DNA of 54,007 nt, taken from the NCBI RefSeq assembly GCF_014698755.1, contig NZ_JACJTO010000031.1:1-54007 (forward strand), read 5' to 3'. Origin of the DNA: Aphanizomenon flos-aquae FACHB-1287 (GTDB lineage Bacteria; Cyanobacteriota; Cyanobacteriia; Cyanobacteriales; Nostocaceae). The notes under the pieces are model-generated. The model saw only the letters and a program-made list of their open reading frames with translations. It did no database searches and was not told the origin of the DNA. A program made the translations under genes and the position numbers. Positions within the stretch are counted from its first letter, which is position 1; each line of letters opens with the position of its first letter. Of this stretch, positions 1 to 33,324 are shown piece after piece.

Positions 1-129
1 GATATATATTTACGGGAAATTCAAGCAGCAATAAAGGAGCAAACAGAAATAGATGTAAGTATATCCAGTTTATCTCGAACTCTAAAACGCTTAGATTTAA
101 GACGTAAAAAAAACTTTAGTAGCCAGTGA
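1..129 (+). pseudogene. IS630-family transposase fragment (partial at window edge)
   Basis: The frame from base 1 is open to a TGA at 127-129 and reads DIYLREIQAAIKEQ, then SSLSRTLKRLDL. This resembles the second winged-helix part of the N-terminal DNA-binding domain of IS630/Tc1-type transposases. The usual continuation after RRKK is lost: the frame ends in NFSSQ where the other IS remnant (minus strand) begins. No DDE catalytic domain follows, so the gene is dead here. The upstream part lies outside the window. The family call rests on a short stretch and is moderate. Confidence 0.55.
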
Positions 130-336
130 GCAAAATTAATAGTTATGCGGTCTTCTAACTGGTTAAAATCTCTTGGTGTAATTCTTTTTATGTCTGTTAA
201 ATAAAAACGCCTGTGGCCAGTTGGGCTGCGTTCAAACTTCAATTTACCAGCGTCAGCCCATACGCACAGTTTTAACTGAAACGCCAAGTTCTTTAGCAGT
301 ATCTCCTATAGAAATCGTCACTTGAGAGTCTTCCAT
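130..336 (-). pseudogene. IS607-family serine recombinase (TnpA) N-terminal fragment, frameshifted
   Basis: Read on the minus strand from the ATG at 336, the product starts MEDSQVTISIGDTAKELGV and runs to SVKTVR. It then goes out of frame, and in the next frame continues WADAGKLKFERSPTGHRR and RITINFA. This is the MerR-like helix-turn-helix of IS607 resolvases followed by the first strand of the serine-recombinase domain (normally ITINYARVSS). One or two bases are missing near 280, and the homology stops at about 135, where the IS630-like sequence begins. It cannot make an active recombinase. The junction suggests one IS was inserted in or deleted against the other. Confidence 0.65.
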
Positions 337-1241: not shown

Positions 1242-2093
1242 CTAATTTGACTCGGAACGGCGGACAAATGGGAGTAAATCTTGTAAAATCACTTCATGAT
1301 AATGTTCTTGGGGATAATGTCCCACATTGTTTAATTTGATTATCTCACCATTAGCCACAGATTGGACAAAAGTTTCTGCTATATTTATAGATAACCAAGG
1401 GTCAATCATCCCCCATTGGACTAAAATAGGTTGTTGCCAGTTTTTAAACCCATTTTCTATTTCTATCATCGCTGTTTCTATCTGTAAATTGCGAATTGTG
1501 TTTAGCAGACTTCTCCCAGCAGCAGAACTTTTCAAAAATGGTTTTCTATAAACATCTAAATCTTGATCTTCAATACGGTAACAACTCCCACTTTCTAAGG
1601 TTCTATCAACTAACAAAGGATCTTGGGTAATGATATCTCCAGCTAATGGTAAACCCATTTGTTTGATTTTCCAAGGTATTTTTGCCCAAGTGGAAATCGG
1701 TGTATTTAAAATAGCGATATTAGCAATCTTTTCTGGATACCGTAATGCGTATTGTAACCCCACTGAACCTAAAAATCCTTGGACAACCAGGGAAAATCTT
1801 TCTAATTCTAAAACTTCCACGAATCCTGCTAAAGCTGTGATAAATGCGTCCGGAGTATAAGCAAAATCCTGTTTTTCGGGTTTACCTGAAAATCCATAAC
1901 CAATCCAGTCCGGTGCGATCGCTCTTGTACCCTGTGCTGCTAAACTAGGAATAACATTTCTCCAACTATAACTTTGAGAAACTATCCCGTGTAACAATAA
2001 CACAGGAATTAAATCACTTCTACCAATCGGTTCAGCTTCCCGATAAAACCATTCTAAAGAATCTACTGTAATTTTATGTTCTTGAATTGACAC
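1242..2093 (-). CDS. Alpha/beta-fold hydrolase-like protein with a non-canonical nucleophile
   Basis: A 283-residue alpha/beta-hydrolase of the haloalkane dehalogenase/epoxide hydrolase-like type. Visible landmarks are the oxyanion-loop HG in LLLHGIVSQ (about 34-36), PDWIGYGFS (61-69), the nucleophile elbow region VVQGFLGS (103-110), the acid Asp231 in QWGMIDPW and His259 in NVGHYPQ. The usual GxSxG is absent: Phe107 sits where Ser or Asp should be. It may therefore be a non-catalytic fold, or use another residue. The substrate is unknown. It lies 190 bp upstream of hemJ on the same strand but probably has its own promoter. No frameshift or truncation is seen. Confidence 0.8.
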   Translation of the reverse strand: MSIQEHKITVDSLEWFYREAEPIGRSDLIPVLLLHGIVSQSYSWRNVIPSLAAQGTRAIAPDWIGYGFSGKPEKQDFAYTPDAFITALAGFVEVLELERFSLVVQGFLGSVGLQYALRYPEKIANIAILNTPISTWAKIPWKIKQMGLPLAGDIITQDPLLVDRTLESGSCYRIEDQDLDVYRKPFLKSSAAGRSLLNTIRNLQIETAMIEIENGFKNWQQPILVQWGMIDPWLSINIAETFVQSVANGEIIKLNNVGHYPQEHYHEVILQDLLPFVRRSESN

Positions 2094-2231
2094 GCTATTT
2101 TCCTATTTGGGAATACAACAACACTATCTAGGTTCTCCATTATCATCTTATAAATAGGTAACAGATAAACAAATCCCAAAACTACTTTACAAAAATAAAG
2201 AAAAAAATTCTCATTTTATGAGTAAAGGTGG

Positions 2232-2260
2232 TTGACTTGCGCCTGGAAATTTGCTATACT
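2232..2260 (+). promoter_or_regulatory. Promoter in repeat unit 1
   Basis: TTGACT (2232-2237), a 17-base spacer and TATACT (2255-2260) form a near-consensus sigma70 promoter pointing to higher coordinates. Transcription would start near 2267 and run into units 2 and 3. No coding region of useful size follows on this strand. Confidence 0.6.
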
Positions 2261-2376
2261 AGTTTCCGATAAGGAAGAACTATCTCACAATAAAAAGTGA
2301 ATTAAACTCCAATACCTTACCCAAAACTACTTTACAAAAATAAAGAAAAAAATTCTCATTTTATGAGTAAAGGTGG

Positions 2377-2405
2377 TTGACTTGTGCCTGGAAATTTGCT
2401 ATACT
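2377..2405 (+). promoter_or_regulatory. Promoter in repeat unit 2
   Basis: TTGACT (2377-2382), 17 bases, TATACT (2400-2405): the same promoter as in unit 1, exactly 145 bp further on. The region just after the -10 differs from units 1 and 3 (AGGTTTCGATGAGG rather than AGTTTCCGATAAGG). Confidence 0.6.
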
Positions 2406-2521
2406 AGGTTTCGATGAGGAAGAACTATATCACAACAAAAAGTGAATTAAACTCCAATACCTTACCCAAAACTACTTTACAAAAATAAAGAAAAAAATTT
2501 GCATTTTATGAGTAAAGGTGG

Positions 2522-2550
2522 TTGACTTGCGCCTGGAAATTTGCTATACT
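2522..2550 (+). promoter_or_regulatory. Promoter in repeat unit 3, antisense to the channel gene
   Basis: TTGACT (2522-2527), 17 bases, TATACT (2545-2550). Predicted transcription begins near 2557 and within about 35 bases enters the 3' end of the minus-strand channel gene, so the RNA would be antisense to that mRNA. Confidence 0.6.
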
Positions 2551-2591
2551 AGTTTCCGATAAGGAAGAACTATCTCGCAATAAAAAGTGAA

Positions 2592-4280
2592 TTAAGCTCC
2601 AATGCCTTTTCCTTCTTCTCGCCATAACTGATTTAACCTAGTCGCAGGCATAGTTAAATACAGCACATCTCCAGGAGAGAGAATAGTTTCTAATAAATCC
2701 CAACCTCGTACAGTTTCGTGGTTGATTTCCACATACAAAGGCACGAAATCCGCAAGTTTAGCCACATCTTTCACCCACTCATCACAAAAAGGGTGTATCG
2801 GTGTAATTGTGGTTGCAAAAGCCACCCATAAACTATCAGCAATAATCCCATTACCAATAATCCTACCACCCAGAGCAGCGGCAGCAAAAGCGGGAGCAGC
2901 TAATTCAGCAGGACTAAAGACAGCTTCAAAATCAAATACCTGTTGTGCCATACCGGCAAAATCAGGATCAGCATAGTTGACAATTACAGGAATTTTGGGA
3001 GCTAAAGCCTTAGATTTGAGGGCAATTTCCAAATTAGTCGCATCATTATTAGTAACAGCTAAAACCGCAGTAGCAGTATTGATATTACTAGCCTGTAAAG
3101 TAGCCCGAAAACTCGCATCAGCAAGGATCACAGGAATACTCATACCTCTAGCAGTAGTCACATATCTATTATTAGCATCTGTTTCAATGACTACTACTTC
3201 ATGGCCACTCAGATGCAATTGTTGAACAATTCTAATACCGATACCACTTAAACCACAAATAATATAATGATTTTGTTGGGGAATTCTCGCAGCATCTAAA
3301 AATTGTTTTAAGCGACTACCCAGGATAAAATCTGTCAGCATAGCGTACCAAATCCCAATTATTGCAGCCCCAATGAGCATAATTACAACGGTAAATAATT
3401 TGATGCTGTCAGGTGCATTTTCTACGACTTTATCATTACCACCAGCCCCTGTAATCATACCTACAGCAAAATATAAAGCATCAATAAAAGACAGACCATG
3501 TTTACTAGCAATATAAGTAAAAGTGGATATTAAAATAATTATCAGTAAAGCAATTGCCATGCCTACAACTGATTGGGCGTGTTTCTGAAATTTCCTAATA
3601 TTAGCAAAAACTTTGACTAGTTTTCTAAATAATGATTTACGTTGGGTACGAATACGGGGTTGAGTGCCAATAATTAAGCGATCTCCTACTCTTAATAATT
3701 GTTCTGATAACACCGCAGATACTAAATTCATTTTTCCTTCTACAGCGACATAATAAATTAGCATTCGCGTCGGATCTTCCCATAAATCACTGATTTTTTG
3801 GCCTTGCCATGGGTGATTTTCGTGAATATATTCTTCTTGAATTGGCCAAATTTGCTCAAGTAATTTGATTTGGCCAATAGCCCTATTTCCCAAAGCCGCA
3901 AAGGTAAATACTGGCGCTGCTAAACCAACAACACTCATACTTAAATGATTTGACAAAGTTTGATCAAGACGTTCACCTAAATTTGTATTATAAAAACGAT
4001 TAATAATCCGAATTTGGGGATTTAGTACCCGTGCTTGCATCATAATTGATAAATTTACGGCATCATCAGAGGTGGCAATTACTAAGGTATGCGCTTCTGT
4101 AATTCCTGCTGCTTCCAAAGTAGAAGCTGCTTGTAACTCACCAACAATTATATTAGTAATATTTTCACCAGCAACAGGTTTCCAATGAATCCCTACTACT
4201 AAAGCTCCTTGTTCTCTGAGTAACCGAAAGATTTTATATCCGGTACGTCCTAAGCCACACACAATAATTCGAGGTTTCAT
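2592..4280 (-). CDS. RCK-channel-RCK potassium channel-like protein (TrkA-N domains)
   Basis: A 562-residue membrane protein with a Rossmann RCK/TrkA-N domain at each end. GLGRTG (9-14) and GLSGIG (343-348) are the two nucleotide-binding loops. Between them lies a two-helix pore unit: helix about 236-257, pore helix 265-275, helix 295-320. This is the plan of ligand-gated K+ channels but with an extra N-terminal RCK copy. The selectivity-filter position reads TGAGGND (277-283) in place of TVGYGD, so ion selectivity cannot be assumed. Nucleotide-controlled ion flux across the membrane is an inference from the fold. The last five codons and stop lie inside the third tandem repeat. Confidence 0.82.
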   Translation of the reverse strand: MKPRIIVCGLGRTGYKIFRLLREQGALVVGIHWKPVAGENITNIIVGELQAASTLEAAGITEAHTLVIATSDDAVNLSIMMQARVLNPQIRIINRFYNTNLGERLDQTLSNHLSMSVVGLAAPVFTFAALGNRAIGQIKLLEQIWPIQEEYIHENHPWQGQKISDLWEDPTRMLIYYVAVEGKMNLVSAVLSEQLLRVGDRLIIGTQPRIRTQRKSLFRKLVKVFANIRKFQKHAQSVVGMAIALLIIILISTFTYIASKHGLSFIDALYFAVGMITGAGGNDKVVENAPDSIKLFTVVIMLIGAAIIGIWYAMLTDFILGSRLKQFLDAARIPQQNHYIICGLSGIGIRIVQQLHLSGHEVVVIETDANNRYVTTARGMSIPVILADASFRATLQASNINTATAVLAVTNNDATNLEIALKSKALAPKIPVIVNYADPDFAGMAQQVFDFEAVFSPAELAAPAFAAAALGGRIIGNGIIADSLWVAFATTITPIHPFCDEWVKDVAKLADFVPLYVEINHETVRGWDLLETILSPGDVLYLTMPATRLNQLWREEGKGIGA

Positions 4281-18482: not shown

Positions 18483-18707
18483 CTAGGGCTTTTTAGGGGT
18501 AGCCGCAGGAGAGGTTGTCGCCGCAGGAGAGATTGTCGCTGCAGGAGAGGTTGTCGCCGCCGGGGTAGTACCAGTATCTGCAGGTTCGCCACTTTTTGTT
18601 GCTGCTGGGGAACTTGTGGTATTAGGTGATTCACCACCACCTTCACAAGCTCCAAGCATGGTAGCTAGACTTAACATTAGAGCCAAACCAAAAACTTTTT
18701 TCTTCAT
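18483..18707 (-). CDS. Small Ala/Thr/Pro-rich lipoprotein
   Basis: A 74-residue predicted lipoprotein. The signal peptide MKKKVFGLALMLSLATMLGAC ends in the lipobox LGAC (Cys21), which would be lipidated. The mature part is low-complexity: GGGESPNTTSSPAAT followed by repeats of SPAATT/SPAATI. The DNA repeats an 18-base unit encoding this. No enzymatic motif. The repeat number can probably change by slippage. It is likely membrane-anchored with a disordered tail; the role is unknown. Confidence 0.65.
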   Translation of the reverse strand: MKKKVFGLALMLSLATMLGACEGGGESPNTTSSPAATKSGEPADTGTTPAATTSPAATISPAATTSPAATPKKP

Positions 18708-29628: not shown

Positions 29629-30477
29629 ATGATGATTACTCAAGAAATAGAATCTCAAGAAAACATCTCATCAGATGTAATTTTACCACCCAGTGATTTA
29701 TATAGTGATGAACCTCCCGTGGAAACAGAACTACATTTAGAGCAAATTATGCTCTTAATCAAATGTCTTAAATGGTTATGGAAAGATAGAACTGATTTTT
29801 ATGCAGCGGGAAATCTGAGTATTTATTATAGTCCACATCAGAGGAAAAGGGAAAATTTCCGAGGTCCTGATTTTTTTGTGGTCTTAGGAACTGAGAAAAA
29901 AACCCGTAAAAGTTGGGTAGTCTGGGAAGAAAATGGGAAATATCCTCATGTAATTGTAGAAATTCTCTCACCAACAACAGCTAAGACTGATAGAGAATTA
30001 AAAAAAGAACTTTATCAAGAAACTTTCCGCACTCCAGAGTATTTTTGGTTTGATCCTTATACCTTAGAATTTGCAGGATTTCATATAACAGACGGAAAAT
30101 ATCAACCTATAAAACCCAATGAAAAAGGACATTTATGGAGTGGACAATTAGGGTTATATTTGGGAATTTATGATGGTTTATTGCGTTATTTCACATCAGA
30201 AGGAGATTTAGTTCCTACACCTGAAGAAACCGCAGAATTAGAAGTTAAAAGAGCCGAACGGGAAATGCAAAAAGCAGAACGTGAAGCTCAAAAAGCAGAA
30301 CGTGAAGCTCAAAAAGCAGAACGTGAAGCTCAAAAAGCAGAACGTGAAGCTCAAAAAGCAGAACGTGAAACCCAACGTGCTGAACAAGAATTCCAACGCG
30401 CTGAACAGGAAGCCCAAAAAGCCGAACGTTTAGCAAAAAAATTACGGGAATTAAATATTGACCCAGATACGATTTAA
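29629..30477 (+). CDS. Uma2-family (DUF820) putative nuclease with a repeat coiled-coil tail
   Basis: A 282-residue protein. The first ~190 residues are the PD-(D/E)XK-like Uma2 fold common in cyanobacteria, with RGPDFFVVLG (catalytic Asp) and HVIVEILSPTT (catalytic Glu). Residues about 205-270 form a charged helix made of AEREAQK heptads, encoded by at least four perfect 21-bp repeats, and the tail ends LAKKLRELNIDPDTI. A nuclease role for the family is predicted from fold; the biological function is unknown. The heptad repeat suggests oligomerisation and is likely to vary in copy number between strains. Confidence 0.82.
   Translation: MMITQEIESQENISSDVILPPSDLYSDEPPVETELHLEQIMLLIKCLKWLWKDRTDFYAAGNLSIYYSPHQRKRENFRGPDFFVVLGTEKKTRKSWVVWEENGKYPHVIVEILSPTTAKTDRELKKELYQETFRTPEYFWFDPYTLEFAGFHITDGKYQPIKPNEKGHLWSGQLGLYLGIYDGLLRYFTSEGDLVPTPEETAELEVKRAEREMQKAEREAQKAEREAQKAEREAQKAEREAQKAERETQRAEQEFQRAEQEAQKAERLAKKLRELNIDPDTI
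30274..30357. repeat. Four perfect 21-bp tandem repeats inside the Uma2 gene
   Basis: GCAGAACGTGAAGCTCAAAA(A) is repeated four times without change from 30274 to 30357, flanked by degenerate copies. Each unit encodes one seven-residue helix turn pair (AEREAQK), so gain or loss of a unit keeps the frame. Confidence 0.9.
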
Positions 30478-32658: not shown

Positions 32659-33324
32659 ATGAATGCTGCTAATTTAATTCGCTTCACATCTTTATCACTC
32701 ATAGCAGTTTTGGGACTGCTATCACCAGCCTATGCTGAGGGACAAAAGTTATCAAATCCTGTTAGTCAAACAAAACCAACTAATCAACCAAAACCCGGTA
32801 ATCAACCAAAACCAACTAATCAACCAAAACCGACTAATCAACCAAAACCAACTAATCAACCAAAACCCATGGAAGAGGGTGAATCTAACATTCTTAGTCC
32901 CACAGAAAGCAGTAGTAATATTTTAAGTATAGAGGGAGGCGATCGCTTGATGAAAGAGATCGACCAAGCGGTTACTAGTCAAGATTATGCCCTAGCTGTC
33001 AAAAAACTCCAACAAGCACGCCAAGTTTATAATCAGTTGTCTAGCCTTTATCAACAACTAAATTCTAGTTTTACGGGTATTGACATTAGCGCTGCTGATT
33101 CCCACCGTAAAAATGCTTTAGCAACTGCCCAAAAGCGAGATGAAGCTACCTATCAATTAGCTCTGGTCTATAGAGCGCAAAATCAGCCAGAATTAGCCAT
33201 TCCTTTGCTAGTGCAAATTATCACAAGTCAAAACCCCACCAGAGAACTAGGTACAAAAGCTTACCAACAATTATTTGAACTAGGTTTTGTAAAGACACCA
33301 TTTCCTTCTCAAGGTAAAAAATAA
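32659..33324 (+). CDS. Secreted TNQPKP-repeat protein
   Basis: A 221-residue protein with a signal peptide (LIRFTSLSLIAVLGLLSPAYA, cleaved near Ala-Glu). Next comes a low-complexity linker of six-residue TNQPKP repeats encoded by 18-bp units (about 32771-32868), and a helical C-terminal part with DQAVTSQDYALAVKKLQQARQVYN and ALVYRAQNQPELAIPLLVQI that looks like a TPR-type repeat pair. The frame is open to a TTG at 32575, but the ATG at 32659 gives a clean signal peptide. Probably periplasmic; function unknown. Confidence 0.6.
   Translation: MNAANLIRFTSLSLIAVLGLLSPAYAEGQKLSNPVSQTKPTNQPKPGNQPKPTNQPKPTNQPKPTNQPKPMEEGESNILSPTESSSNILSIEGGDRLMKEIDQAVTSQDYALAVKKLQQARQVYNQLSSLYQQLNSSFTGIDISAADSHRKNALATAQKRDEATYQLALVYRAQNQPELAIPLLVQIITSQNPTRELGTKAYQQLFELGFVKTPFPSQGKK
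32771..32868. repeat. 18-bp in-frame tandem repeats
   Basis: Five to six near-identical units of the form ACTAATCAACCAAAACC encode TNQPKP in the secreted protein. Differences between units are single bases. Confidence 0.85.

Follow-up and report, generated by a model that had tools for sequence, protein, structure and literature searches.

Organisation of the array and its surroundings

The window analysed here is a stretch of 54,007 nucleotides from Aphanizomenon flos-aquae FACHB-1287, one contig of a 4.35-Mb genome. It contains a short tandem array that stands between an alpha/beta hydrolase gene and a potassium-channel-like gene with TrkA_N and Ion_trans_2 domains, both of them identified from their open reading frames and Pfam matches. 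The features of the locus are as follows:

1242..2093, minus strand: alpha/beta hydrolase gene, divergent from the array (ORF and Pfam)
2175..2319, plus strand: repeat unit 1, 145 bp (repeat comparison)
2232..2260, plus strand: promoter-like site 1, TTGACT-N17-TATACT, with TG before the -10 (sequence)
2268..2284, plus strand: conserved 17-mer core of unit 1, with 7 nt between the -10 and its first G (sequence)
2320..2464, plus strand: repeat unit 2, 145 bp, in which GATGAGGAAGAACTATA replaces the consensus core (repeat comparison)
2377..2405, plus strand: promoter-like site 2, TTGACT-N17-TATACT, with TG before the -10 (sequence)
2413..2429, plus strand: core of unit 2, with 2 mismatches (sequence)
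2465..2609, plus strand: repeat unit 3, 145 bp, overlapping the last codons of the channel gene (repeat and ORF comparison)
2522..2550, plus strand: promoter-like site 3, TTGACT-N17-TATACT, with TG before the -10 (sequence)
2558..2574, plus strand: core of unit 3; an RNA from here would be antisense into the channel gene (sequence)
2592..4280, minus strand: TrkA_N / Ion_trans_2 potassium-channel-like gene, its 3' end antisense to the array read-out (ORF and Pfam)

The three direct copies are each exactly 145 nt long, and units 2 and 3 are both 96% identical to unit 1. Since the pairwise differences among the units amount to 6, 6 and 12 positions, they do not represent a single stretch that the assembler duplicated exactly. 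Unit 3 is probably the original copy, because the 3' end of the channel gene is intact in it, and units 1 and 2 carry a degenerate copy of that gene end. An initial annotation of this DNA had described three exact 145-bp units with TTGACT-N17-TATACT in the same direction, and this is what is found at 2175-2609, all on the plus strand. The "ghost" of the channel gene end that it saw in the unit is real, and its suggestion that a gene end had been amplified together with its flank is borne out by the overlap of unit 3 and by the decayed ends in units 1 and 2. It had also stated that no protein is encoded on the transcribed strand; in agreement with this, the plus strand of the array has no ORF of at least 60 aa inside it. 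The small palindrome that it had placed upstream of the -35 holds only in part: CTCATTTTATGAG is exact in units 1 and 2, but unit 3 reads GCATTTTATGAG. In those relatives that retain the box, it is mostly CGCATTTTATGAG or close variants, and at the channel site of four genomes (G005, G007, G008 and G012) it is absent. Being exact in two of three units and varied or absent in relatives, the palindrome is not a conserved feature.

The initial annotation had missed the 17-mer GATAAGGAAGAACTATC, which lies directly behind each array promoter, at the predicted transcription start; the first G of the unit 1 core is predicted to be +1 or +2 of the RNA. No terminator-like site was found in 2094-2700 and no inverted repeat of at least 12 in 1500-3500.

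Other tandem repeats are present in the window at 18499-18584, 30241-30429 and 32766-32867, with periods of 18, 21, 36 and 63 bp. The left end of the window (21-287 on the minus strand, and 1-120) looks by eye like insertion-sequence remains, and the ORF located there presumably encodes an SPTGHRRFY-type HTH, as in IS607-like resolvases.

Dispersal of the promoter and the core

When the array was used as a query against relatives, partial matches were obtained in 26 of 100 genomes, and what the aligned matches share is the promoter plus GATAAGGAAGAACTATC, not the whole unit. In its own genome the 17-mer occurs 8 times exactly and 18 times with up to 2 mismatches, compared with 3 for the reversed pattern, and reading by eye revealed a TTGAC-led promoter in front of 17 of these 18 matches. 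A joint promoter-plus-core pattern was then defined as TTGAC, 28-33 nt and GAYRAGGAAGAACTAT, with the reversed pattern as control, and it is found in 15 copies in the own genome, against 0 for the reversed pattern. The significance of the array promoters lies in this comparison. Alone they are weak evidence, with 3 sites against a mean of 1.8 in shuffled sequences.

All 16 genomes of the genus examined (Dolichospermum-type) contain promoter-plus-core copies, from 8 to 53 in each. In the family, at least one copy is present in 44 of 217 genomes and in 15 of 56 genera, and the reversed pattern gave a single match in the 217 genomes; in genus g7 the promoter-plus-core pattern is found in 0 of 53 genomes. 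The hosts named among the matches listed are Dolichospermum, Anabaena, Cuspidothrix, Nodularia, Sphaerospermopsis, Cylindrospermum and Trichormus sp. NMC-1. Four non-cyanobacterial loci among these matches (L112, L114, L122 and L150) were taken as chance and left out of the conservation profile described below, which is built from 187 intergenic copies and has the same row count with or without them. These comparisons indicate that the array is a local triplication of one member of a dispersed promoter-plus-17-mer family.

Outside the family, 7 genomes have promoter-like plus core matches, and one of them, G062, carries four tandem copies with a different -35 region. The other six (G068, G408, G434, G708, G716 and G802) were dropped as coding coincidences, the match being inside a protein family that reads DKEELS; this left 21 of 27 genomes in one cross-genome scan and 13 of 16 in another. 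Related to this, at six loci (L025, L051, L053, L067, L297 and L300) DKEELS, or DKEELY in L025, is encoded by the same 17 nt or with one change. The genes of this type at these loci, which are outside the genus, also carry a -10-like stretch in front, and the extended match is striking; the likeness of DKEELS genes to the element is taken as a coincidence. In viral contigs there are 14 stretches with the exact 17-mer, none of which, in the sequence shown, has a correctly spaced TTGAC, and these were taken as chance or coding.

Anatomy and conservation of the element

Conservation across the 187 intergenic copies covers about -65 to +28, counted from the core, and ends there, the remaining transcript being locus-specific: beyond +28 the identity is about 0.27 and the tails are not conserved between loci. 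Two classes can be distinguished. Class A (38 of the 187 copies, including those of the window) has TTGACT, 7 nt from the -10 to the core, and TTCGCATTTTATGAGTTAAG upstream. Class B (149 of 187) has TTGACA...ATTTTAAATnTGTTATnAT, 6 nt from the -10 to the core, and upstream A-tracts about one helical turn apart. Considering 205 copies, the distance from the -10 to the core is 6 nt in 155 and 7 nt in 39, and 11 do not fit; because the core begins 6 or 7 nt after the -10, it marks the predicted 5' end of the RNA. Between classes A (n=36) and B (n=142) the mean identity of the core is 0.945, like the within-class values, and that of the spacer and the upstream box is 0.41 and 0.34, respectively (0.57-0.58 and 0.43-0.61 within classes). 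As core and TTGAC served to select the copies, all these identities are biased.

Free variation in the core is confined to positions 3-4 (Y and R, respectively), and their partners near the 3' end hardly vary, so the core does not look like a dimer operator. In the possible 4-bp stem GAUA/UAUC no compensatory change was seen, and an RNA stem was rejected for this reason. Swapping tails between copies leaves the pairing of the core unchanged (0.519 for real copies, 0.502-0.521 for swapped ones), and shuffled cores are less paired than the real one (0.578-0.587 unpaired). Since the tails are without effect and the core is more paired than its shuffled versions, an accessible seed in the core is not evident.

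By a lax rule and with coarse clustering, terminators follow 19 of 53 copies, against 14, 10 and 14 in three controls, which is not a clear enrichment; a stricter rule, applied to the copies only, gives 7 of 99. Strong hairpins (<= -16 kcal/mol) were found in +25..+165 of 20 of 100 copies; the corresponding numbers are 9, 4 and 2 for three windows upstream and 8 and 4 for those further downstream. The enrichment is moderate, and some of these hairpins sit at convergent gene ends. As judged from its sequence, the element does have a promoter of its own, which is a feature of stand-alone trans sRNA genes.

The element at the channel site

At the channel site copies were located through the neighbouring gene and not by similarity to the element. 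From 59 genomes with a channel match, 30 loci were fetched. Promoter and core are present at the channel in 14 of the 16 genus genomes, that of the window included, with cores of up to 3 mismatches and TTGAC invariant in all 14; in three of these genomes (G007, G008 and G013) the core is partly decayed. Two congeners (G004 and G011) have no element at the channel, and outside the genus it is found there in 0 of 14 genomes fetched. Within the element, TTGAC has the highest mean identity (1.00, n=14), followed by the core (0.93), the -10 block (0.76), the spacer (0.70), the upstream box (0.64) and the discriminator (0.55). Because TTGAC and core exceed spacer and discriminator, promoter and core are maintained at this site as the intervening letters change, but the adjoining coding DNA is almost as conserved as the core, the gene end having an identity of 0.89. 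A clean empty site could not be demonstrated at the channel because the intergenic DNA is too diverged.

Tandem arrays at the channel site were found in 3 of the 14 genomes, with spacings of 145 and 145 in the window, 221, 218 and 221 in G003, and 371 and 220 in G015. Ten others have a single copy, and G006 is at a contig end. The initial annotation had proposed that promoters and repeat copies be compared with those of close relatives; the promoter proved to be conserved at the site, but 10 of the 13 other element-bearing congeners lack the extra copies, and one more is at a contig end.

Arrays are also frequent elsewhere. The fetched loci display 21 different tandem spacing patterns of up to 400 bp, some of them perhaps partial views of one array. 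At L176 a 100-bp triplication copies the end of the adjacent gene, as in the window. In G507 (genus g40; loci L287, L292 and L296) four copies are spaced 193-194 bp apart and three more with the same spacing occur elsewhere, which suggests the duplication of a whole array. These loci indicate that amplification is a habit of the element family and not of the channel locus.

Neighbouring genes and their changes

Most of the fetched promoter-linked copies (187 of 205) are not inside an ORF. The downstream ORF is on the same strand in 82 cases and on the opposite strand in 96, so there is no orientation preference; the 15 sites of the own genome face 6 same-strand and 9 opposite-strand genes. For some copies a gene begins 27-58 nt downstream, and the element could simply serve as its promoter. 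Several sites recur, and their neighbours are given Pfam names for one member of each and were read by eye for the rest. One has an HNH gene on one side and alr (alanine racemase) on the other and is found in Nodularia (g40), g28 and Dolichospermum-type loci, where g40 was assigned to Nodularia by sequence shared with L109 and the Dolichospermum-type loci were recognised via downstream DNA similarity. Another is found 27-28 nt before a binding-protein-dependent permease gene, which we take to be potC-like, in g22 and g28. In two genomes of one genus the element adjoins a tetrapyrrole-methylase gene.

On the hydrolase side, the element faces the channel in G000, G001, G009, G010, G013, G014 and G015. 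In three genomes of other genera (G042, G478 and G055) and in the congener G004, it faces instead a gene of a DAO-family oxidase, presumably thiO-like. Six congeners (G002, G003, G005, G007, G008 and G012) keep the element at the channel with no hydrolase found within the fetched locus, and in G003 the hydrolase, with its own element copy, is on another contig (L007). Loci L008 and L007 compared with L237 show the order hydrolase-element-thiO-like or hydrolase-element-channel, and in G003 hydrolase and channel are on separate contigs with their own copies each. A rearrangement breakpoint may lie at or next to the element in these loci. The element outlives changes of neighbour on either side.

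Possible functions of the element

The sequence comparisons show a conserved block, its dispersal, its retention at one site through neighbour changes and its tandem amplification at many loci. Our tentative reading, which we put forward as the best of several and without much assurance, is that the copies are short non-coding transcription units of one multicopy family; the shared RNA 5' end would be their active part, and copy number would determine the dosage. Each unit would possess a strong promoter of the sigma-70 type, composed of an AT-rich upstream box, TTGAC[AT], a 17-nt spacer and TGn-TATnnT. The element would be transcribed, with the RNA starting at, or one base before, GAYRAGGAAGAACUAUC and continuing into a loosely kept ...AAUAA and then into locus-specific sequence. 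The working part would be the shared 5' end of this non-coding RNA, which may act in trans, either through pairing or through a protein that it binds; the dose would depend on copy number and tandem arrays, and the antisense overlap with the tail of the channel mRNA would be a by-product. It is possible, although we hold it with a little more reserve, that these RNAs share only a 5'-terminal 17-nt tag, which a strong promoter with an upstream A-tract box would position exactly at the transcription start, and that they represent a new regulatory or decoy RNA, or a sequence-encoded initiation signal, of bloom-forming Nostocales, with up to about 50 units per genome. The reading as transcription units is supported by the fact that core and promoter travel together (17 of 18 own matches; 15 copies against 0 reversed), and it is weakened because the array has no terminator, terminators are not clearly enriched, the tails are unconserved and the seed does not appear accessible.

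The main rival is a role at the DNA or initiation level, in which the elements are a promoter set whose 17-mer at +1..+17 acts as a repressor site or as an escape or pausing sequence, the RNA content being irrelevant. The 17-mer lies directly on the predicted +1, a promoter so near to consensus would need control, and conservation of the core independently of the tail is explained equally well as by an RNA. The recurrent sites upstream of alr and of the potC-like permease, each in more than one genus, and beside the tetrapyrrole-methylase gene in two genomes also speak for this role. However, the constraint on the core is without dyad symmetry, as positions 3-4 vary and their 3' partners hardly do, and opposite-strand genes are faced as often as same-strand ones (96 and 82; 9 and 6 in the own genome). 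We regard this role as rather unlikely, although it has to be taken seriously. A promoter repeat that is mobile or spread by recombination, serves no host function and is conserved because its spread is recent comes third and is unlikely. It would account for the range of 8-53 copies between species of one genus, for the amplification into arrays, and for one site with the element in L093 where about 120 bp are missing in L197; no obvious target duplication was seen at this last site. The missing stretch and the variable copy number point to turnover. On the other hand, some sites are common to different genera (hydrolase/thiO-like, HNH/alr), the core is kept at the channel site while the spacer diverges, and no match was obtained in plasmids with one class A query or in phages with one class B query. 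The comparison of occupied and empty sites covered five locus pairs, taken from candidate empty sites among those listed, and in an unsystematic look at these aligned pairs neither a terminal inverted repeat nor a target duplication was noticed.

The initial annotation had proposed that the array silences the channel gene by antisense. The array promoters do point into the 3' end of the channel gene, and the element is at the channel in 14 of 16 genus genomes. As a conserved function this is improbable, mainly because the element outlives neighbour changes: the same element faces the thiO-like gene in the congener G004 and in three genomes of other genera, it is absent from the channel in G004, G011 and all 14 of the extra-genus genomes fetched, six congeners keep it there with no hydrolase found, and copies in the family face either strand about equally.

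Should the family be transcribed as its sequence suggests, a genome would gain as many as about 50 strong start sites, most of them non-coding. The variation from 8 to 53 copies between species of one genus, together with the frequent tandem amplification, would constitute a natural dosage series. More generally, what looks like an isolated odd array can belong to a family that extends over the whole genome.

Comparison with known systems

At the gathering score, Rfam recognises only two tRNAs in the whole window. When 8 loci were compared with Rfam permissively, three matches below threshold appeared (SNORD56, MEG8_1 and Atu_C9), of which Atu_C9 (15.9 bits, gathering 40, E 2.3) overlaps an element copy in L026. 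Literature searches with 13-letter and 11-letter forms of the motif and with descriptions retrieved no paper with the motif or with a description that fits, and the 11-letter form gave no cyanobacterial title among the matches listed. The main text of the Nodularia transcriptome study lists the 50 strongest gene starts and a few RNAs (PMC3610870). The invariant RNA start is in no paper found and in no Rfam family above threshold.

The initial annotation had likened the layout to that of NsiR1 and had added that sequence and neighbour differ; the likeness of layout and the difference in neighbours are both sustained. In Nostoc sp. PCC 7120, the region upstream of hetF contains 12 copies of NsiR1, which have DIF1 promoters and give an RNA of about 60 nt (PMC9045159); the DIF1 motif is TCCGGA at -35 (PMC6133370). 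The array resembles NsiR1 in its tandem near-identical copies, each with its own promoter, in having divergent siblings and in one copy being antisense to a neighbour (PMC9045159); it also adjoins a gene end and belongs to a lineage in which heterocyst formers occur. Homology with NsiR1 is nevertheless hardly credible: TCCGGA is in none of the three units, the -35 and -10 are canonical, the neighbours are an alpha/beta hydrolase and a TrkA_N/Ion_trans_2 channel instead of hetF, and the window has no Rfam match besides its two tRNAs. Multicopy (sibling) sRNA families exist in other bacteria as well (PMC9045159). By promoter motif and location, the array is not NsiR1; furthermore, the element is dispersed over the genome, its promoters are of the sigma-70 type with an extended -10, and what its copies have in common of the predicted RNA is limited to the first 17-28 nt.

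In multicopy sibling sRNA families several loci have a shared RNA segment, and the elements described here are like them in this respect. They differ in that no shared body or terminator was found, the shared part being the promoter and the 5' end. Mobile promoters and MITE-like repeats are, putatively, short dispersed repeats carrying a promoter. The element is also short, dispersed and promoter-bearing, but unlike MITE-like repeats it has no inverted-repeat ends that were noticed, it occupies sites common to several genera, and its most conserved part is the transcribed 17-mer and not its ends.
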